NCBI GenBank assembly: GCA_012517475.1
Contig: JAAYUV010000103.1
Span: 1-36,419, forward strand
Source of the DNA: Peptococcaceae bacterium
GTDB taxonomy: Bacteria; Bacillota; Desulfitobacteriia; Desulfitobacteriales; Syntrophobotulaceae
Direction of reading: 5' to 3'
DNA length: 36,419 nt
Below the pieces are notes generated by a model that saw only the letters and a program-made list of their open reading frames with translations, made no database searches and was not told where the DNA came from. Shown here in pieces: positions 1,656-15,243 of this stretch. Numbering within the stretch: position 1 is the stretch's first letter; the number at the start of each line of letters is the position of its first letter. Both the position numbers and the translations under genes were made by a program.

Positions 1656-1744
1656 TGGCGGAGAGGGCGGGATTCGAACCCGCGTGCCGTTTCCGACAAA
1701 CTGATTTCGAGTCAGCCCCGTTATGACCACTTCGATACCTCTCC
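1656..1744 (-). tRNA. tRNA-Ser (CGA)
   Basis: A complete class II tRNA on the minus strand, 89 bases including an encoded CCA at 1658-1656. The acceptor stem is GGAGAGG/CCTCTCC with discriminator G. The anticodon arm is GCTGA-CTCGAAA-TCAGT with anticodon CGA, there is a long variable arm around GTCGGAAACGGC, and the T arm is CGGG-TTCGAAT-CCCG. The 3' half matches a second, broken tRNA-Ser copy at 16946-17002. Serine tRNA 3' halves are common integration sites for tyrosine-recombinase elements. Confidence 0.93.
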
Positions 1745-2751: not shown

Positions 2752-3292
2752 CTATAGCTTTCTAATAAATAGATATCCCGAATTTGTGACGAAAGATCAA
2801 TTTTATCGGATATGCCATATAAGCAAAAATACAGCGCGGTATTATCTGGAGAATGGCTTTATTCCTTGCATTAATTCCGGCAAAAAGACACGCAGATATA
2901 AAATTGCGCTGAAAGATATTATTTTCTTTTTAGAGGACAGAGACAGAAATCCGGAAAAATACTATCTGCCGAATCATTATAACAACCCGTTTTTGCCGGG
3001 TAAAATCAGGCGGTATAATTTCAAACCCCGGCCTGATCTCTATAAACATCACTACAAGCTAAAGGGCATAAATGATGTTAAAGATTATAGGCAATATCTC
3101 GAACTGCAATTTGCAGATTATCCGGATATGCTGACAAGTAAACAGATACAACAAGTCACCGGTCATTCGACAAAAACAATAATTTCATGGTGCGAGTCGG
3201 GCAAGGTGAAATATATCAGACACCGTTATGCCTACCTTCTTCAAAAAAAGAGTGTCATTGACTATTTGTTCAAGCGGGAGTTGCAACAATAA
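2744..3292 (+). CDS. Tandem helix-turn-helix protein, copy 3
   Basis: A 182-aa protein from ATG 2744, which overlaps the stop of copy 2; a GGGGTG ribosome binding site lies inside the upstream gene. The N-terminus (MSDYSFLINRYPEFVTKDQF) closely parallels that of the copy at 17346 (TDYSYLLAEYPEKISQDQL). The first HTH carries the family signature RICHISKNTARYYLENGFIP followed by GKKTRRYK. The second unit is at about residues 120-170 (DMLTSKQIQQVTGHSTKTII). It ends just before a good terminator. A coupled pair of diverged paralogues could form a heterodimer that recognises an asymmetric site; this is inference. Confidence 0.75.
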   Translation: MSDYSFLINRYPEFVTKDQFYRICHISKNTARYYLENGFIPCINSGKKTRRYKIALKDIIFFLEDRDRNPEKYYLPNHYNNPFLPGKIRRYNFKPRPDLYKHHYKLKGINDVKDYRQYLELQFADYPDMLTSKQIQQVTGHSTKTIISWCESGKVKYIRHRYAYLLQKKSVIDYLFKRELQQ

Positions 3293-3299
3293 GGATAGT

Positions 3300-3333
3300 G
3301 CCATTTGTTCTGTATAGTGCAAATGGCTTTTTT
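3300..3333 (+). terminator. Rho-independent terminator after the tandem-HTH pair
   Basis: The stem GCCATTTG/CAAATGGC (3300-3307 and 3320-3327), with a 12-base loop, is followed by six T. It begins 8 bases after the stop of the gene ending at 3292. Confidence 0.8.
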
Positions 3334-3509
3334 AAATAAAAGAAAGAGTATTAGTCATTTTAGACTACGACACGGGCGGAAACGAATGACGGCAAAATTG
3401 TTTTATTCATAGCTCTTCATCACCAAAATAATAGTGATAAGGAGACTAAAATAACACTCGGCTGCTTAACTACTCGAGATATATGACTACACTCCAACAT
3501 GATTTTATT

Positions 3510-5273
3510 TTAATGGTTATATCCTAAATACTTTATTTGTATTGGATATAACGCTTCCTTCATTCTCGAGTGAGAAACATATAAGAGATTTCTTTCTACA
3601 GCTATACTATCGACATCAACTACAAATACTCGGTCAAACTCTTTTCCCTTAGATTGATGAATGGTGGTAATATATAGGCCGGGGGTAATTTGTGTGTATG
3701 AATCAATATACTGTCGCTGCATCATCACTTTATCAATATCATCCGCAGATAATTCTTTCTTTGATATACAATGCTCAACAAAGCGTTTTCTCGGATAGTT
3801 AATCATCTGCTCGGACTCATTGTTCATGACATCCAACATTTTTCTTAGTACTTCCCAGCAGGTTTCCAATACATCCGAGTCAAGATGTGGTGAGATAACA
3901 GCATTCAAAGCTTTGAAGATGGATTTCCTTTTTCGACTAAGAGAGGCGCCTGTGTAAGTCATTAAGGTCTCAACGCTCTCTCCGTCAATCTTTTTATCCA
4001 TCATGCATAATGCTACGGCGCATAAAAGAAGCGGAACTTTTGTGTGTAGTGTTTCGAGAACCAAGCATTTCTTTAAGATCTTGTTGATCTTTAGCAAGTC
4101 ATTCGTATCCGAAACAGAACGAGGATACAAGTTGTTTTCAAAGAATACTTCAGCTAACCTGCTTGCAACATTATTATTCCTACATAAAATGGCTATAGAT
4201 TTGTTCTTTTTTAGCAAAGCAGACACTTGCCCAATGCAAACATAAAAGATCTGTTTTGAGAGAATAGAACACTGAGTTTTAGCAGATTTCCCTTTTTTAA
4301 TATGCCAGTCGGGATCGCAAGCTACTGATCGAGATAACAGTTTCCCATTAGTTAATTTACTATAGTCAAATTCCGTACCAGAACGTATTGCAGTTAATAG
4401 GTCAACAAGATCTGGCTTGTCTTTATAGCGAAAATATTCAGTGAACTCTATCGTTTTTAGATCTAGGTATTTTTTAGGCAATTGTTTTAGCCTTTCTTCC
4501 GCAGAACCCCTGAACTCATAAATCATTTGGAATCTGTCGGCAAAGAATATACCACGTGATTCCTTAAGTATTGAAGACACAAACTGTTCTTGATAGTAGT
4601 TGGTGTCCTGATATTCATCAAGAATGACAACTGGATAATCATGGCTGATAGCTCTTGCCACGCTTGGTGATGATTGTAATATTTTACACGTTAATGCACC
4701 AAACTGAGCAAAGCAAATGAATCCAGTATTTTTTGTAAAACGAAATGCTTCATCAAGGTATCGAATAATATCCTTTTCTTTTTTGGCTTTGAATTCACTT
4801 TGCGAATTTTTGAGAATTAAGTGGCCATTCTCGAGAGAAAAGTCATCAAAAATATTACTTCGTAAACCCTTGGGAAGTTTTTTCCTTTGGATTTCAAGAT
4901 AAGCGGCGAGTAGTTCAGCATAGTCGTCGTCATCTACAACAGATAGAGGTTGGCTAATACCAAGAGTATCCCGGTACACGTCGAGATATTTCTTGAAAAA
5001 TGAATGGTAATTATTAATCTCAATATGTTTGCGGGTAGGATCGCCTGGTGACAATGATGACAACTCTTTTATAAGCTGAGCCCTTGCATTTCTTGAAAAA
5101 GTTAAGATCAAGACCTTCTGATATGGCATCAGCATATTATTGTCCCAAAGACATTTCGCTGCTTGTATACAACTGTACGTCTTGCCTGTTCCTGCTGGTG
5201 CTTCAACCAATACGTAATTAGCCCCGCTGGCAAGCAAATCCAAAAACTCTTGTTGCTTCCCTTTTGCCGCCAT
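3510..5273 (-). CDS. gajB-like: Gabija-like UvrD-family helicase (GajB-like), module 1
   Basis: A 587-aa superfamily 1 helicase. Walker A APAGTGKT is at residues 25-32, motif Ia LILTFSRNARAQL at about 55-67, DEYQDT at 219-224, and motif III ADRFQMIYEFRG at 245-256. Motif V TTIHQSKGKEFDRVF is at 536-550 and motif VI LLYVSHSR at 563-570. In Gabija, GajB assists the GajA nuclease and responds to nucleotide pools and DNA ends during phage infection. It lies directly downstream of an OLD-family ATPase/nuclease gene, with only 3 bases between stop and start, which is the Gabija order. It is divergent: motif III has Ala-Asp instead of the usual Gly-Asp. It is longer than the typical GajB (about 500 aa). 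Confidence 0.82.
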   Translation of the reverse strand: MAAKGKQQEFLDLLASGANYVLVEAPAGTGKTYSCIQAAKCLWDNNMLMPYQKVLILTFSRNARAQLIKELSSLSPGDPTRKHIEINNYHSFFKKYLDVYRDTLGISQPLSVVDDDDYAELLAAYLEIQRKKLPKGLRSNIFDDFSLENGHLILKNSQSEFKAKKEKDIIRYLDEAFRFTKNTGFICFAQFGALTCKILQSSPSVARAISHDYPVVILDEYQDTNYYQEQFVSSILKESRGIFFADRFQMIYEFRGSAEERLKQLPKKYLDLKTIEFTEYFRYKDKPDLVDLLTAIRSGTEFDYSKLTNGKLLSRSVACDPDWHIKKGKSAKTQCSILSKQIFYVCIGQVSALLKKNKSIAILCRNNNVASRLAEVFFENNLYPRSVSDTNDLLKINKILKKCLVLETLHTKVPLLLCAVALCMMDKKIDGESVETLMTYTGASLSRKRKSIFKALNAVISPHLDSDVLETCWEVLRKMLDVMNNESEQMINYPRKRFVEHCISKKELSADDIDKVMMQRQYIDSYTQITPGLYITTIHQSKGKEFDRVFVVDVDSIAVERNLLYVSHSRMKEALYPIQIKYLGYNH

Positions 5274-5276
5274 CCG

Positions 5277-7025
5277 TCAGTCTCCATTCAATGCAAAAAC
5301 ATTCGTATATCCATTTAAAGCGTTTAGCTTCTCTCCGTCTGTTGAAATGTGTTTTATCAGGGCCTTAAAAAAACCAGGTACTTGGCCGTCTTCAGTAATC
5401 CAGCATGCAATTATCCGCGAAAAATACGGGTTTGCAAAACTATCATGAAGTACATACTTCAGGAGCCTTTTTTGAGGCAGCAAATCCTCATAAGAGTTTA
5501 TGTCAGCAATATTGATATGATGTTCTTTAATGAAATCATGTATTTCAACTTTTTTAGCCTCAGGTTTTTCATGTTCAGCTGCGTTGTAGCTTTCAATACT
5601 CAACAGTTTGTCCTTAATCACAGAAAAATCAACTAATTCATGTAGATGTGATATATAGCTATTAGCAGATGGAAGAATCAAGTCCTCATACGAATCTTGC
5701 GCCACAAATACCACATCAGCAATCCCTGAGATCTCATTCAGGTGTCTTTTCACGTCTGTATCATTATCAATTAGCACATGCACAGTTTTACCAAAGTGCT
5801 TTAGGGCCTGACAGTATGACTTAAGTTTTGTCTTCCCTCCAACACGCAGCAATTCAATATCATATTGGCTTAATGCCAAATCGTATGTATAGGAGTATAT
5901 TGGAAATGCCTCAAATTCTGATTCTCCCTCAACCAGAAGAACGGCATCCGCCATTAGTGAAGATAAAAACTCTTTCTTATTGAGCCTTTGTATGTCCTTT
6001 AGGATTTGATCATCAAGGCCACTTAGTAATGGAGTTGAAGTCACAGATGAAACTGTGCTTATTGTTTGATAATCAAAATGACTTATGATGTCCGGCGAAT
6101 GGCTTGTAATGAAAATTTGCCCTACCGAAAGCCGCTTATACTCATCTGCAATATATCTTTGGTATTTGGGTTCCAGGTTTTGCTCCAGCTCTTCAATGAA
6201 CACAATTCCTGCGCCCTTAAGCTGCTCTTTCATTAGCAACAGTAAAAAAAGGCTGCGGATTCCTTTAGATTGTTTGCTGAAATTTAGTTGTGCATTTCCA
6301 ATTGAAGTGCCTAACTCATATCCTGAGTAATTCCATGTAGATTCAGGATTTTTTAGCAGGATATTATATTTCTCGATTGAAGCAATCTTTCCAAGGCTTT
6401 TAAGAGTGTCAAGATATGTAGAAATGATTCCTGACTCTGCGAGCTTTTTATTAGCCTCTTGGATGATTTCTTGAGAAATCCGTTCGATTTCTCCGCCTAT
6501 GGAATTATGAGCCATTTTGTAAAATGTACTTTTGGTTTGCAAACCAACCTCTTTCAATGGTTGTCGATCTGCATCAATATATGTGAAATTAACCGTTTTA
6601 CGTGCACTTAATGAGCAAGGAGGTTGCTGGGTTTGCTGGTAAAAACTCCACTCCATATGCCTGTCCGCGCCGCTCTCCAACTGATAAATCAATATAGGTT
6701 TTAAGTGGTCAGGAGTATCATCAGCAACAAAGTTGTCATCTTTATCTATGTGCTGCAAATATTCAGAGTAACTTGTAGCTAAAGCATCAATATCGTCAAG
6801 CCATATTTGTATCCGTATATGTAGTGTTGTATCTCCAAAGTAATAGTCGGATGTCTCAAAGTATGAATCATAACCAGTAGATGAAAACGTTAGCGCAATA
6901 GCCGCAGCGAGGTTAGACTTACCGCAGCCATTTGCCCCAAACAGCACATTCGTTTTAGGATTAGGCTTCCAGGAAAATGTTTTGAAATTCCTAAAGTTTT
7001 CAATATTAATTTTATAAATATACAT
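5277..7025 (-). CDS. gajA-like: Gabija-like OLD-family ATPase/TOPRIM nuclease (GajA-like), module 1
   Basis: 582 aa, close to the usual GajA length. The N-terminal SMC/ABC-like ATPase has Walker A GANGCGKSN (residues 30-38), a signature-like FSKQSKGIRS (249-258), Walker B IVFIEELEQNLEP (274-286) and the H-loop TSHSPD (307-312). The C-terminal TOPRIM domain has the catalytic Glu motif VEGESE (365-370), the glycine turn RVGGKTK (394-400) and the acidic LIDNDTD (418-424). The family nicks or cleaves invading DNA under control of nucleotides. Start ATG 7025 has a GGGAG ribosome binding site. A TATAAT is found 48-53 bases upstream on the minus strand (7078-7073), with only a weak -35. Confidence 0.87.
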   Translation of the reverse strand: MYIYKINIENFRNFKTFSWKPNPKTNVLFGANGCGKSNLAAAIALTFSSTGYDSYFETSDYYFGDTTLHIRIQIWLDDIDALATSYSEYLQHIDKDDNFVADDTPDHLKPILIYQLESGADRHMEWSFYQQTQQPPCSLSARKTVNFTYIDADRQPLKEVGLQTKSTFYKMAHNSIGGEIERISQEIIQEANKKLAESGIISTYLDTLKSLGKIASIEKYNILLKNPESTWNYSGYELGTSIGNAQLNFSKQSKGIRSLFLLLLMKEQLKGAGIVFIEELEQNLEPKYQRYIADEYKRLSVGQIFITSHSPDIISHFDYQTISTVSSVTSTPLLSGLDDQILKDIQRLNKKEFLSSLMADAVLLVEGESEFEAFPIYSYTYDLALSQYDIELLRVGGKTKLKSYCQALKHFGKTVHVLIDNDTDVKRHLNEISGIADVVFVAQDSYEDLILPSANSYISHLHELVDFSVIKDKLLSIESYNAAEHEKPEAKKVEIHDFIKEHHINIADINSYEDLLPQKRLLKYVLHDSFANPYFSRIIACWITEDGQVPGFFKALIKHISTDGEKLNALNGYTNVFALNGD

Positions 7026-7387
7026 TTGTTTTCTCCCACTACATTTACTTCTTGGTACTCTTGTAGCTTCCCATTATAGACTTATAACAACTTCGCCAAA
7101 AACCATTACAAAAGTGCCTGTGCCTCTAATTCAACAATTTCCTAAATATTCCTTCTAGCTATGATGAATTTAAATTAAGAAAAACGTACAAAGCATTAAA
7201 ATCTTTGTGCATACTCTTTTAAAAACAAGACATATTTTTTATTCGATATAACCTTGAAAATCTAATTTGTTTAAAAGCATAAGTTTGAAAAATTGAAATT
7301 TTATTGGTATTTCTATAATGATATAATATTAGAAAGTACTGTAAATGATGTACCTTGCAAAAGATACTATATAAAGAAGGGTTAACA
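7026..7387. other. Divergent promoter region between module 1 and the 376-aa gene
   Basis: 362 bases, very AT-rich, between divergent genes. On the minus strand a TATAAT (7078-7073) could serve the Gabija-like operon. On the plus strand there is a promoter at 7293-7319. No small gene is convincing. Confidence 0.5.
7293..7319 (+). promoter_or_regulatory. Sigma-70-type promoter for the 376-aa gene
   Basis: TTGAAA at 7293-7298 and TATAAT at 7314-7319 are separated by 15 bases, slightly short. A second TATAAT at 7322-7327 overlaps the region. The gene start is about 70 bases downstream. Confidence 0.5.
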
Positions 7388-8518
7388 ATGTTAAGATACC
7401 ATCCAGAAAGATTCAGAGTAACGAGACCTTATGCAAAACAGATTGTGAATTTTTTTAGAAGCAATATTTCTGATGGGATTCCATCTATGGTACATTTACA
7501 AGAACTTAGTGGCATGATAATGAAAAAATATAACGAAGAATTAATGAAGCTTCCTTTTGAAAAACGGCCTCCCGATACGCGGCAACTCTCAAAAGAAATA
7601 TCATATGCGGTTCAATATGCGACATTTGTAATGTATGGCAGAAATATATTTCATTTTGAGCCTGATTTAACTGAAAAATTCAGACAAACTGATGTTGATG
7701 AAGTCCCCGTTTCCGCGCTCATATATCCATATAAGGTATTTTATATGAGTTTTGGCATTCAGGAAGATTTGGACTTATGGCACCAAGGATATTATGTTGA
7801 CGGAGCCTATATTGCTGCTCTTCCGGGTTTACCGTTACAAATCATACTTTCAACAGTTCGTAAGGATGTTGATTATAAAGATAAGACAAATTGGATCACA
7901 AATCCGGATAGATACTACTACCTTGCTTTAAATATTGACAATCCTGAAGCATCCATTTCCTTTGTAGTGGATCAGGCATTAGAGGAAGAAATTAAGTCTC
8001 ATGATGTAAGCCATCTACCGGATGAGTCAGGCGTATATGAAATTGATGGGCAGAATATTATGATGATTGATAATAAGCATAATTCAGCGGAATTAGATAT
8101 AAGTGATGCAAAGCAGGGATTCAATGTGTTTAAAGAAGCTCTTCGCCTTGTTATTAATGGACTTTGCTATGTTACCTCTTATCGAGAGGAAATTAAAGAA
8201 CAATGGCCGGATGAAACACCGAAGTTACTATTAGAGCGGTTGACTAACGCAACAAAAAACAGCAGCCGCCAAAAAATAAGGGCTGAGTTGACATCGCTGG
8301 GATATACAAAAGTTAACTTTTGCGGTAGAACAATTTCTAAAGACAAAGTAGAGCTTATTTCATCGGGGAAAGAAATTTCAGCACATTGGAGAAGGGGACA
8401 CTGGCGAAATCAAGCATATGGGCAAGGATTGAAAGATAGAAAACTGATATGGATTATGCCAGTGCTGGTTCGTAAGGATAAAGGGGAACCGGAATTAGGG
8501 CATATTTACAAACCATAA
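7388..8518 (+). CDS. Unknown protein with an AcrVA2-like C-terminal motif
   Basis: 376 aa from ATG 7388, chosen because AAGAAGGG lies 6 bases upstream; an ATG 33 bases earlier has no site. The C-terminus contains HWRRGHWRNQAYGQG, then KLIWIMPVLVR and a final GHIYK. As I recall it, the phage anti-CRISPR AcrVA2 ends in a similar block (RRGHW, a G-x-G turn and an R-W-x-P-x-x-V strand), and this C-terminal block is widespread in mobile elements. AcrVA2 lowers Cas12a production during translation. No Cas12a is present here. The middle has several Tyr-rich hydrophobic strands and no catalytic motif that I recognise. Possible roles are anti-defence protein, regulator, or part of the defence island. 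Family link moderate, function unknown. Confidence 0.5.
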   Translation: MLRYHPERFRVTRPYAKQIVNFFRSNISDGIPSMVHLQELSGMIMKKYNEELMKLPFEKRPPDTRQLSKEISYAVQYATFVMYGRNIFHFEPDLTEKFRQTDVDEVPVSALIYPYKVFYMSFGIQEDLDLWHQGYYVDGAYIAALPGLPLQIILSTVRKDVDYKDKTNWITNPDRYYYLALNIDNPEASISFVVDQALEEEIKSHDVSHLPDESGVYEIDGQNIMMIDNKHNSAELDISDAKQGFNVFKEALRLVINGLCYVTSYREEIKEQWPDETPKLLLERLTNATKNSSRQKIRAELTSLGYTKVNFCGRTISKDKVELISSGKEISAHWRRGHWRNQAYGQGLKDRKLIWIMPVLVRKDKGEPELGHIYKP

Positions 8519-8717
8519 GGCTTAAACTTCTTCAAAAATCGAGCAGCTCAAAGGTACATATAATTTCTTCAAAAAATCTCTAAACACTTTTTATAAAATT
8601 CGGGGTATAATATATAGGAAGCTTAAGTGAATGAATAGAGGAAAAATTTTTATAGGGCGTTTACCTGGTTTGGTGTATAATAGTATTAGTTGCAGATGAT
8701 TGAAAGAGGTGATACCC

Positions 8718-8900
8718 ATGGCAACCGTTTCATTTGACAAGAACATTGTCATAAGAGAGCCTGAAGCAATAGAAAGACTTGTTGAAGTACTTTCTTCAAA
8801 GGAAGCAAAACCAATAAACAAAAAACTTGCTTCCGACGAGGCTATGGCAAAGGGGGAAGAGTTATTAAAACAGTGCTTATCCCACTTGAAACGTTATTAG
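8718..8900 (+). CDS. Small antitoxin-like protein preceding a GNAT toxin
   Basis: 60 aa from ATG 8718 (MATVSFDKNIVIREPEAIER), with an AGAGGTG ribosome binding site. The N-terminus looks like a short beta strand (ATVSFDKNIVI) followed by two helices, a layout seen in small antitoxins. The gene overlaps the following acetyltransferase-like gene by 28 bases, so the pair is translationally coupled. A TATAAT at 8676-8681 lies upstream but has no good -35 at normal spacing. The antitoxin role is inferred from size, order and overlap, not from a recognised family. Confidence 0.6.
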   Translation: MATVSFDKNIVIREPEAIERLVEVLSSKEAKPINKKLASDEAMAKGEELLKQCLSHLKRY

Positions 8901-9448
8901 AAATGACTTCCGAAGAAACAGTAACGGAAGTCATTTCTACTTTTTATTGCTCTAAAGACCACGATATAGAGAGTTTTTTAAAGAAAGAAAACAAAGCTAT
9001 TTTATATGAGAGGAAAGCTAAAAGCCGTACATATTTTATCTTTGATGAAAATGGACTCGAGAATGGAAACTTTATTCTTCTGGCATATTTTTCGATTGCA
9101 ATGCAAACTTTAAAAATACCGAATGGTACAGCAGCATCTCAGATTAGAAAACTGGATGGTCTGTATGCTAAAAAGGGGTCCGAAGCAATAACGGAAATTC
9201 CCGCATTTCTTATAGGACAACTTGCTAAAAATGATGAGTATGCAGATAAAATTACTGGTGATGAATTACTGGAATATGCGCTTTCAGTGATCAGTAAAGC
9301 GCAGGGAATTGTCGGTGGCAGGGTGGTTTTTATAGAATGCCAGGACCAACCCCAATTGAAAGACTTCTATGCTAGAAATGGTTTTAAATATTTCAGAAAA
9401 GATCCGAATGATGGTTTAGTTCAAATGATAAGATTATTGGATAAATAG
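8873..9448 (+). CDS. GNAT-like acetyltransferase, probable toxin of a type II pair
   Basis: 191 aa from GTG 8873, with an AGGGGGAAGAG site about 12 bases upstream inside the antitoxin gene. The C-terminal half has GNAT features: a hydrophobic strand GGRVVFIECQ (about residues 146-155), then LKDFYARNGFKYF (about 161-173), which is the usual end of the fold that places a Tyr near acetyl-CoA. ENGNFILLAYFSIAM resembles the central strands. In related systems GNAT toxins acetylate the amino group of charged tRNAs and block translation. The small upstream gene would neutralise it. The acetyl-CoA loop (R/Q-x-x-G-x-G/A) is only loosely visible, near KAQGIVGG, so substrate and activity remain inferred. 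Confidence 0.68.
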   Translation: MLIPLETLLEMTSEETVTEVISTFYCSKDHDIESFLKKENKAILYERKAKSRTYFIFDENGLENGNFILLAYFSIAMQTLKIPNGTAASQIRKLDGLYAKKGSEAITEIPAFLIGQLAKNDEYADKITGDELLEYALSVISKAQGIVGGRVVFIECQDQPQLKDFYARNGFKYFRKDPNDGLVQMIRLLDK

Positions 9449-11526: not shown

Positions 11527-13401
11527 TCAATCTACTACTAATCCCAACTGAACCAAATATCTTGATGGCATCTGTTTTTTTACAGCACCCCAAGGCATCA
11601 TCTTTTCGCTGGGAAAAGTAAGATAGCATAATCTTTTTGAGCGCGTTATTGATACAAACATATTGTGTTGTTCTTCGTCAAGCTGAACAGAATCGTTAAG
11701 AACTCTATAATCGGGAAATGTACCCTCGTTAAGCCCCATAATAAATACTACATCAAATTCAAGCCCTTTAGACATATGTACAGTAGATAAAGTTAGACCA
11801 TGTTCTTTTGAAGTGTTAGTAACGCCCAGGGCTATTGACCTCATCATATTAGAAAGATTTCGATCATCTACTGAAGAATTTTTAATATATGTATTCCAAC
11901 GGTCTACCCAAGCAGAATAATCGTTCAGTGTAAGAAGTCGCTCGTTATCGTTTTCAAAGTTATTTTCAACATTGCAATATTCTTGGAAGCAATCTAAAAC
12001 CCTATCAAATCTAAACATAGAACCAAGAGATTGTATAGTATCCCATGCAGCGTTAAGTACACTAGATGCTTGCTCCCCTATTACTGTTCCTAACAGCGAA
12101 TTGTGCTGCAATTCAGGAAAAGATGTTATTGAATTAGAGGTGATACCCAAAATTCTCCGCAATTCTAAAAAGTGAAGAACATCTTTTGGATTCATCAACA
12201 GGCGTAAACTTAAATCAAAAACCTTAAAAATAGTTGATTCACTATTGATGCCCTGATTAGCGGATGCTCTCAAATGGTAATCTATTTTTTTATCTAATAA
12301 TAGATTTTCAAGAGTTGCAAATACGTATTTATTACGAGCAAGTACAGCACATTGCGATAATTCAATGTTGTTACCCTCTATATCTGGATGTCCTTGCTCC
12401 AATAAAGCAGTCAGCTTCTCAATTATCCATAACGCTTCGCTTTCTTCATTATCAAACCCATTTATTGTACACTCTCCCAATATGGGTAACTGGCCTTCCA
12501 TTTCAAAGCTCGGTTCAATTTTCTTCGCTGCATCAATTACTGTCCGAGATGAGCGATAATTCTCAACCAAAACAAATTTACGCGCGTCATATTCTTTGGG
12601 GAAATTGTAAGTCATGAATTGACTAGATGATCCATTAAACCCGTATATTGCTTGACTAGGATCACCAACCATAAATATGCCGGATGATGTTCCGGCCAAT
12701 GCTTTAATGACCTCATACTGAGATCTGTTTAAGTCTTGCGCTTCATCCACGCAAATATGTTTATATATTCTTTGATAAATTCTTGCAACTGATTCTTTTT
12801 CAGATAGTATTCTATATGCGTATAGCAGTATATCATCAAAATCAATGGCATTTTGGGCAAGCATTAGGTTGTTATATTCTTGATATAATATTTGACTATT
12901 AGGTTTATGGGCATAATCTGCAGGGAATTTAAAATTTCTCTTTGCTTTGCTAAGTGATTCGAATAAATCTCGTAAACTTTTTGAATCGAATTTACCACCT
13001 TTAATACACTTTTGCTTTAACTGAGGGACACAATTCAGTGCTTCCTTAAAAATCTCCAGTCTATCTTCCGCAGATTCAAAAATATGTAAATCCTGGCTAA
13101 GTCCTATCGTCGTTCCATGCTGTAAAACTAGCTCCATACAGAAATTATGAATTGTTCCAACATATACCAACTCTTGCAATTGATCATTAGAATAGCTTTG
13201 TAACAAACGTTCTTTCAATTCGTTTGCAGCTTTGTTGCTGAAAGTAATTGCTAATACCTTTTCACCACGTTTACCCTCGGATAATAGTTTTCGGATGCGC
13301 TCTGTTAATGTACGTGTTTTGCCGCTACCTGCTCCTGCGATTACATAGCAATACATATTGGGGGCATCGACAATCTCTTGTTGCTTAGGTGACAAATTCA
13401 T
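11527..13401 (-). CDS. gajB-like: Gabija-like UvrD/PcrA-type helicase (GajB-like), module 2
   Basis: 624-aa superfamily 1A helicase with canonical motifs: Walker A AGAGSGKT (22-29), Ia AITFSNKAANEL (51-62), DEAQDL (219-224), GDPSQAIYGFNG (246-257) and NYRSS (281-285). Also present are TVHMSKGLEFDVVFIMGLNEG in part (540-560) and VSITRSKR (583-590). It is much more UvrD-like than the helicase of module 1. It follows an OLD-family gene with the same 3-base gap. The start ATG 13401 is preceded by GGGGG inside the end of the upstream gene, so translation is probably coupled. The alternative, a housekeeping PcrA, is unlikely given the length and this setting. Confidence 0.85.
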   Translation of the reverse strand: MNLSPKQQEIVDAPNMYCYVIAGAGSGKTRTLTERIRKLLSEGKRGEKVLAITFSNKAANELKERLLQSYSNDQLQELVYVGTIHNFCMELVLQHGTTIGLSQDLHIFESAEDRLEIFKEALNCVPQLKQKCIKGGKFDSKSLRDLFESLSKAKRNFKFPADYAHKPNSQILYQEYNNLMLAQNAIDFDDILLYAYRILSEKESVARIYQRIYKHICVDEAQDLNRSQYEVIKALAGTSSGIFMVGDPSQAIYGFNGSSSQFMTYNFPKEYDARKFVLVENYRSSRTVIDAAKKIEPSFEMEGQLPILGECTINGFDNEESEALWIIEKLTALLEQGHPDIEGNNIELSQCAVLARNKYVFATLENLLLDKKIDYHLRASANQGINSESTIFKVFDLSLRLLMNPKDVLHFLELRRILGITSNSITSFPELQHNSLLGTVIGEQASSVLNAAWDTIQSLGSMFRFDRVLDCFQEYCNVENNFENDNERLLTLNDYSAWVDRWNTYIKNSSVDDRNLSNMMRSIALGVTNTSKEHGLTLSTVHMSKGLEFDVVFIMGLNEGTFPDYRVLNDSVQLDEEQHNMFVSITRSKRLCYLTFPSEKMMPWGAVKKQMPSRYLVQLGLVVD

Positions 13402-13404
13402 CCA

Positions 13405-15243
13405 TTATACCCCCAATACAGATTTAATTTTTGCCATAAGCTCCATAATTCTTGGTGGAAACTTTCTATCTCCTTCACATTCTTCACAGATAGTGGTAGA
13501 TATGATCGCTGCGTATTTTGCTTTACCTGATTTCATGCAATCACATAAAGCTCTCCTTCGGCCGCCATCGGAAAGATAATCTCTAACTGGCATCTCCTTT
13601 ATGGATTGACCGCATTTTTCACAAGTTTTCCCTGTATTTCTTGGGGACATTGATTCTCCATGATGCTTTGATATAAATGCTTCAAAGAATGGGAGTTCAT
13701 ATTCAGCAAGTGTATCATACTCAAAAACGTTAATCGCTTTGATTATTTGCTCGTCATAGTCGTTATCCAAGAGGTATGTTTCGAAGTCAGTTGAGCCATC
13801 CAAAATAATAATGTTTGTGTATTCGTTTAAGTTTGGTTTATCATTAAGTCCTCTTAGTTTTTGGATGCTTGATTGTAGATCTTTTATAGCTGCGGGTTCT
13901 CCGTCGCTGAATATAAACCATTCTGCCCCTATAGATTCTAATATCCGCAAGAAGGGCAAATAATTTTTCCCACCGACACCCACGATACTTACACCAAGTT
14001 CAAACGGTTCTTTCCTGAAATATTCTTTAAAAAAAATCTTTAATGCCTGTTCTTCAGTTTCGCCTTCGGCGAGTACAGTTATATTCGAAAATAAAAGCTC
14101 TCCCCGGGTATTCAATACAAAACGCTCTATTTGTCGGAGTTCATCCTTTTGTAATTTTAAGGATGATATTGGATAACACTTTGATTCCGAATTTCTCAAA
14201 GCCACATATATCAAATCACTTAACTTTGATGAAGATAAAAGATAGGGTGAATGAGTAGTAATTATCCTCTGTCCCCCAATACCTAAAAAATCCTGTACCA
14301 ATTGCCGTTGTGAATGAGGATGAATATGCGCTTCGGGTTCTTCAAATGCCAACATACAAAAGTACGGGCTATCTTGGGCTAATTCAAGCCGCTTGTTGAC
14401 AATAGTTTTTAACGCTGAAAACACAGCACGACTTCTCGTTCCAAGTCCTAAATAAGAAATTGGGAAAGAAGAAGATGCCTCCTGTGTAACATAGATGTCT
14501 AATCCTTTGTATAACTCATCAACTTTTCTTGTGATTGGGCTAATCTCAACTTTGCTGTTCCTTGTATTAGTTGCAGAAGATAAATCAGTTGATACTTGTT
14601 GCAAGAATGGACTTTCGGCTAAAATTTTATCGCTCAAAACTGATAACGAATTTTCAATTTCGGTTCGAGCATCATTTGAAAGTTTGATTTTTGATATTTG
14701 TTTATTCCATAATGAAGCCTTATCACGTATATCTGACGCGATATCTCTTTGAGCGTCAAGAAGAATAAAGTCAAATGCAGATAACGTCCTAAAGCGCAGT
14801 GTATTACCAGCAACAATATCATCTGTATTCCAAACATTTATAACTTTTTTCTCACGAATATACTCTTCTCGATCAGTATCATAAACAAACTCAGTTCTAA
14901 AGCCAAAAAATTCATTATCGTCTTGATCGGATCTTATATTTTCTCCCAAATGTAGTGCCCATGTTTCATCAAAAGCCTTTACTTGCTCTTGGCGTTCATT
15001 TACCGGAATAAACAATAAGTCAATAACCACGGGTTTATTAGTTGAATTTGGATAATCTGGAGAAACAAAAACGTCTGTATGATCTATATTCCCGTTACCA
15101 AAAGCTAATTTTAATGCATATAAAAAGTTTGATTTACCACTATCATTCATACCAAAGAAAACCGAGTAAGGGTGAAGATATATGTCCACATCCCTTATTG
15201 AACGGTAGTTTTGAATATGAACGCGATGTAATTTGATATTCAC
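13405..15243 (-). CDS. gajA-like: Gabija-like OLD-family ATPase/TOPRIM nuclease with Cys-rich C-terminus, module 2
   Basis: 612 aa from GTG 15243 (AAGGAG site 8 bases upstream). The ATPase domain has Walker A GMNDSGKSN (31-39), a signature-like LGLGTRSRA (265-273), Walker B LAFEEPEAHIHP (298-309) and THSPYL (330-335). The TOPRIM part has LAEGETEEQ (391-399), VGGKN (423-427) and FSDGEP (445-450). After residue 535 there is an extension with CEKC (541-544), CDC (567-569) and CEEC (586-589). This could bind zinc and is not part of the usual GajA plan as I know it. It is only loosely related to the module 1 ATPase, so the two modules are not a recent duplication. Confidence 0.85.
   Translation of the reverse strand: MNIKLHRVHIQNYRSIRDVDIYLHPYSVFFGMNDSGKSNFLYALKLAFGNGNIDHTDVFVSPDYPNSTNKPVVIDLLFIPVNERQEQVKAFDETWALHLGENIRSDQDDNEFFGFRTEFVYDTDREEYIREKKVINVWNTDDIVAGNTLRFRTLSAFDFILLDAQRDIASDIRDKASLWNKQISKIKLSNDARTEIENSLSVLSDKILAESPFLQQVSTDLSSATNTRNSKVEISPITRKVDELYKGLDIYVTQEASSSFPISYLGLGTRSRAVFSALKTIVNKRLELAQDSPYFCMLAFEEPEAHIHPHSQRQLVQDFLGIGGQRIITTHSPYLLSSSKLSDLIYVALRNSESKCYPISSLKLQKDELRQIERFVLNTRGELLFSNITVLAEGETEEQALKIFFKEYFRKEPFELGVSIVGVGGKNYLPFLRILESIGAEWFIFSDGEPAAIKDLQSSIQKLRGLNDKPNLNEYTNIIILDGSTDFETYLLDNDYDEQIIKAINVFEYDTLAEYELPFFEAFISKHHGESMSPRNTGKTCEKCGQSIKEMPVRDYLSDGGRRRALCDCMKSGKAKYAAIISTTICEECEGDRKFPPRIMELMAKIKSVLGV

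Follow-up and report, generated by a model that had tools for sequence, protein, structure and literature searches.

A diverged AcrVA2-superfamily protein carried as cargo by a conjugative element in a host without detectable Cas12a

The open reading frame at positions 7388 to 8518 of a 36,419-nucleotide stretch from a Peptococcaceae bacterium (JAAYUV010000103.1; the whole stretch is called the window here) codes for a diverged protein belonging to the AcrVA2 superfamily. AcrVA2 is a phage protein which shuts off the CRISPR enzyme Cas12a during its synthesis. The window gene is cargo of a conjugative element and its product probably silences something other than Cas12a. We favor, with a probability of about 0.4, a cargo protein of the AcrVA2 type that would read a nascent peptide and silence the corresponding mRNA, with a target other than Cas12a and, most likely, in the service of counter-defence. 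The window protein is a testable new branch of the AcrVA2 superfamily.

As read from the sequence, the gene starts with an ATG at 7388, its stop codon ends at 8518, and 376 amino acids are encoded. Conservation along the protein was taken from alignment A1, i.e. the window protein and 12 plasmid relatives gathered by a whole-protein search without use of a motif. The following features were assigned:

7388-8518, plus strand: gene for the AcrVA2-superfamily protein, 376 aa (open reading frame with ribosome-binding site, PHROG 6160, hhalign, fold)
7375-7380, plus strand: GAAGGG, likely ribosome-binding site (read directly from the sequence)
7388-7642, plus strand: N-terminal helical region, aa 1-85, poorly conserved (AlphaFold helices 5-12, 16-26, 34-52 and 65-82; mean pairwise identity in A1 0.21)
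7643-8377, plus strand: central domain, aa 86-330, boundaries approximate (hhalign aligns aa 75-376 to AcrVA2; identity in A1 0.14-0.30)
8378-8473, plus strand: C-terminal basic module, aa 331-362, HWRRGHWRNQ...G...KLIWIMPVLV (identity in A1 0.52; alignment with AcrVA2 proteins)

The C-terminus quoted in a preliminary description of this DNA is identical to the translation (HWRRGHWRNQAYGQGLKDRKLIWIMPVLVR). The AcrVA2 pattern it gave was essentially correct, as the AcrVA2 sequence of 7CI1 holds PHIRRGHWHGYWQGTGQAKEFRVRWQPAVFVN. Its proposal of an own promoter found no support: 13 promoter-like matches were counted between 6900 and 9800, no excess over shuffled sequences (10.9, s.d. 3.6).

At E 0.1 the window protein matched no Pfam and no NCBIfam family, and there was no match in PADLOC. 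Thus, an assignment to a metabolic family, which the preliminary description had set against an AcrVA2-like identity, did not emerge. An AlphaFold model built from 48 sequences was confident (pLDDT 89.9, pTM 0.87). The structural match to AcrVA2 on which the same description had made its proposal depend was obtained with Foldseek at E 7e-7: in the PDB the model retrieved 7CI1/7CI2 (E 7e-7 to 4e-6, probability 1.0), followed by a next match at E 0.32. VIA-align gave AcrVA2 a Z of 14.9 over 254 residues (rmsd 5.3, 11% identity) and the next entry a Z of 2.3. Among solved structures AcrVA2 is therefore the sole match to the model in both comparisons. The TM-scores against AcrVA2 were modest (0.32-0.41), so the domains may pack differently. 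In BFVD, 14 uncharacterised viral proteins matched the model, several of them from Erwinia and Dickeya phages.

Profile comparisons agreed with the fold. PHROG 6160, a profile of 322 positions with no function given in the library, matched aa 179-365 at E 8.3e-9. A protein from a Shewanella phage, carrying the annotation AcrVA2 (PMC10846135), matched PHROG 6160 at 1e-58 and PDB 7CI1 at 1.5e-72; because of this we regard PHROG 6160 as the AcrVA2 PHROG. Two alignments were then compared by hhalign with A3, a profile of six AcrVA2-type phage proteins. A1 matched with a probability of 97.9% (E 5.9e-13). A4, a wider set of relatives whose loci were found using the motif HWRRGHWR, reached 98.4% (E 8.7e-15), and an unrelated control profile 0.06% (E 0.77). 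The resemblance to AcrVA2 is well beyond chance, and the AcrVA2-like identity first suggested from the C-terminus now holds by fold as well as by profile.

The link emerged through PHROG, hhalign and fold comparison. It was missed by searches of the PDB, in which neither the single sequence nor the profiles A1 and A4 found AcrVA2 at E 10. In a tree of 66 sequences (FastTree, midpoint root) a long branch separates the AcrVA2 phage group from the group of the window protein, which mixes plasmid, chromosomal and phage proteins from several phyla. On these sequence data, the window protein can be classed as distinct from AcrVA2 proper. Moraxella AcrVA2 (7CI1, 7CI2) and its PHROG 6160 phage homologues resemble it in overall fold and are homologous in the central and C-terminal parts, including a C-terminal module RRGHW...G-x-G...W...P...V. 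In contrast, identity is only about 11-14%, and the window protein is longer (376 compared with 322 aa). An identity of about 12% leaves room for a changed function.

The nearest neighbors in the tree are uncharacterised proteins from Thiocystis (L029) and Methylococcales (L030, L073), which stand beside long plasmid forms. They share the short architecture of the window protein and 38-43% identity over the full length; the Methylococcales copies at least have ordinary chromosomal settings and a downstream 212-aa gene which the window lacks. The plasmid proteins, which have 545-585 aa and are likewise uncharacterised (Pseudomonas FeN3W, Denitratisoma, Ahniella, Diaphorobacter, Accumulibacter), are about 30-33% identical along all 376 residues, yet have at the N-terminus an additional domain of about 160-190 aa, absent from the window protein. 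This extra domain is frequent in proteobacterial plasmid forms. Its model had a pLDDT of 78 and gave only marginal matches, many of them RNase H-like (best Foldseek E 0.03), which we take as a lead. The extension was noted in the following forms:

L002, 6416-8146: plasmid form with N-terminal extension
L003, 6536-8176: plasmid form with N-terminal extension
L033, 7521-9185: plasmid form with N-terminal extension

The highest identity was seen with a Paenibacillus filicis copy (70% and 53% in two pieces), which is apparently broken. Searches of 100 near genomes and of 398 genomes sampled from the phylum returned no relative. Therefore, the window gene was probably acquired horizontally.

As the preliminary description had surmised, the family is wide. 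A motif scan returned 88 relatives in bacterial genomes (Pseudomonadota, Bacteroidota, Verrucomicrobiota, Acidobacteriota, Cyanobacteriota and Paenibacillus) and 123 in viral contigs; a search of viral contigs with the single window protein returned none. Matching plasmid records numbered 44. Carriers of the family are plasmids, conjugative elements and phages, including jumbo phages. A wide AcrVA2 fold family is already known from a structural survey with 342 AcrVA2-like hits in UniRef30, of which those described are all uncharacterised (PMC12230656). What is new is where this branch is placed and that it is set in a conjugative element of a host without detectable Cas12a.

Which part of the protein is held constant? 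Mean pairwise identity in A1 was 0.52 in the C-terminal module compared with 0.14-0.30 elsewhere. The invariance of HWRRGHWR in A4 was left out as evidence, since those loci were found with the same motif; A1 was used instead. The module is basic, with seven K/R and one D/E, and in the alignments its RRGH and W core is common to the family and AcrVA2. By alignment, the central domain (aa 86-330) would be the counterpart of the peptide-binding MID domain of AcrVA2. According to a review which relays a preprint, AcrVA2 reads the nascent N-terminal peptide of Cas12a and this leads to loss of the cas12a mRNA (PMC13131331). This reported mode of action, in which a nascent peptide is read and its mRNA destroyed, is described as without precedent in prokaryotic defence systems. 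By analogy, the central domain of the window protein may bind a short stretch of one specific protein while it emerges from the ribosome. The conserved basic module would serve a step common to the family, a contact with the ribosome or with RNA that results in loss of the mRNA, and the target protein would no longer be made. A constant effector or ribosome-contact module combined with a variable reader would explain why the C-terminal module is conserved and the remainder variable. A conceptual analogue is the autoregulation of tubulin by TTC5, a eukaryotic case of mRNA decay coupled to the nascent chain (PMC10403363); no homology is claimed.

The target is probably not Cas12a because none is detectable in the host, whereas AcrVA2 is directed against this enzyme. 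A Cas12a profile had no match anywhere in the genome to which the window belongs, nor in 83 genomes of its class. The same search detected a near-full Cas12a in another genome with 1403.8 bits. No CRISPR-type repeat array was found within the window. The absence of array and Cas12a from the window, reported in the preliminary description, thus stands, and for Cas12a it extends to the genome. Among 50 genomes with relatives there was no Cas12a match over the cut-off and no intact Cas12a. Cas12a is in any case rare (2 of 149 genomes of one class), so that these 50 genomes demonstrate a lack of association and are not proof of independence. One of them, Bacteroidetes 37-13, has an N-terminal Cas12a remnant with 51 matched residues. 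In this genome, which also has an AcrVA2-like gene, the remnant and the CRISPR-like repeats near it are located at L189, 240-400 and 1501-1656; the repeats resemble type V-A repeats.

Other CRISPR systems might be targets. The host has a complete-looking type I-B locus (Cas6-Cas8b-Cas7-Cas5-Cas3-Cas1, with an array of at least 48 repeats) and also type I-E genes. The window protein might act as an anti-CRISPR against these proteins, either by silencing their synthesis or by direct binding. AcrVA2 itself is an anti-CRISPR, and genes of this kind benefit mobile elements. However, an Aca-like regulator was not recognised beside the AcrVA2-like gene and the hosts of its relatives are of many kinds; we consider this explanation unlikely. 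In our preferred reading the target would be a host or rival-element protein other than Cas12a, most likely one which limits the element.

The mobile setting bears on the purpose. The window has conjugation genes (TrbL_5, a T2SSE-type ATPase) with a GC content of 50%. The cargo stretch, with two Gabija-like pairs and the AcrVA2-like gene, has 36-38%, and an IS5-type transposase lies in between. A tRNA gene near the left end of the window (1659-1744, minus strand) is a possible integration site of the element. The placement of the gene in a cargo region with Gabija-like genes, as stated before, was confirmed. Its neighbors are:

3510-7025, minus strand: left Gabija-like GajA/GajB pair (weak in PADLOC, E 7.7e-37 and 2e-47)
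11527-15243, minus strand: right Gabija-like GajA/GajB pair (strong in PADLOC, E 1.9e-166 and 8.7e-213)
8700-8900 and 8873-9448, plus strand: 66-aa open reading frame overlapping a 191-aa one by 28 nt (the latter with a weak GNAT match, E 0.025)

The two flanking pairs are of very different kind, and the left one may be a divergent OLD-helicase system. The 66-aa/191-aa pair directly downstream has a toxin-antitoxin-like layout. As a part of an AcrVA2-like system it was dropped; no homologue was present at the loci of relatives.

Is the gene itself a defence gene of this cargo island? It could silence a nascent phage protein or support the neighboring Gabija-like modules. It sits between two such pairs, the cargo differs in GC from the transfer genes, and the distant Mangrovibacterium relative (L059) is next to a Gabija-like pair. 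There, at 3110-9023, the pair, a 225-aa open reading frame and the AcrVA2-like gene follow each other on the same strand. Yet in a survey of about 48 relatives with flanking DNA, Gabija-like genes were near only one or two (L059, adjoining; L067, a GajA-like gene 6.5 kb off), and the other neighbors were scattered. Further, phages carry the family, which would be odd for an antiphage gene. In the window the gene and Gabija-like module 1 (5277-7025, minus strand) point away from each other, in accordance with the preliminary description, and the gene is in an operon with neither module. Nor is it a candidate Gabija component: PADLOC gave no GajA/GajB match, and with Gabija-like genes near only one or two of the about 48 relatives the gene does not qualify as a constant third gene of Gabija loci. 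The cooperation with the Gabija-like genes proposed earlier was thus not borne out, and a functional tie is not supported beyond proximity. We regard a role in defence as rather improbable. Carriage by plasmids, conjugative elements and phages favors counter-defence over host defence, in line with our preferred reading.

The neighbors of relatives were equally varied: integrases, resolvases, restriction genes, toxin-antitoxin genes and ordinary chromosomal genes. Mutual comparison of 114 neighbors gave few small clusters, Pfam families were scattered and no conserved partner gene appeared. Some of the nearest relatives lie outside mobile elements and adjoin ordinary chromosomal genes, e.g. purA. 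Copies in chromosomes next to housekeeping genes suggest wider roles. Possibly, then, the AcrVA2 fold is put to another use here, in plasmid maintenance or toxin-antitoxin control, or in binding of RNA or peptide without loss of mRNA. The plasmid relatives with the extra N-terminal domain are found among ParA/ParB, TrfB-like, RepA and toxin-antitoxin genes, further relatives adjoin housekeeping genes, and the window gene is followed by the toxin-antitoxin-like pair. On the other hand, conservation is highest in the module held in common with AcrVA2, which suggests that a biochemical step is shared too, and no partner gene is conserved across the family. We assign such other uses a low probability.

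More broadly, mRNA silencers directed by nascent chains might form a large bacterial family, in which a constant C-terminal effector is combined with a variable reader and AcrVA2 is a single specialised twig. Plasmids, conjugative elements, phages and chromosomes would use such silencers against many different proteins. The window protein would be a member with a target that is not Cas12a. We put this forward tentatively and hold it to be somewhat doubtful. The AcrVA2 fold with its C-terminal module occurs where no Cas12a is detectable in the host, and its carriers in several phyla include plasmids, a conjugative element, phages and chromosomes. The notion of a general bacterial gene-control device thereby becomes directly testable, and so do its targets.

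Some loci of relatives show local arrangements of their own. In the two Methylococcales a 212-aa gene without Pfam match follows the AcrVA2-like gene (L030, 9164-9802; L073, 8396-9034). The two copies are 73% identical to each other and their chromosomal surroundings differ; the gene is a candidate partner. An AAA_22 ATPase gene follows the AcrVA2-like gene in a Desulfobacterales contig (L054, 8928-9647) and in a viral contig (L109, 5612-6334). At both loci a 710-aa gene is located closely upstream, without a Pfam match as checked for L054. In a Pantoea plasmid (L012, 3968-6056) and a Citrobacter plasmid (L016, 4145-5879) a ribbon-helix-helix/RelE-ParE toxin-antitoxin pair lies 2-3 nt upstream of the AcrVA2-like gene in an operon-like arrangement.
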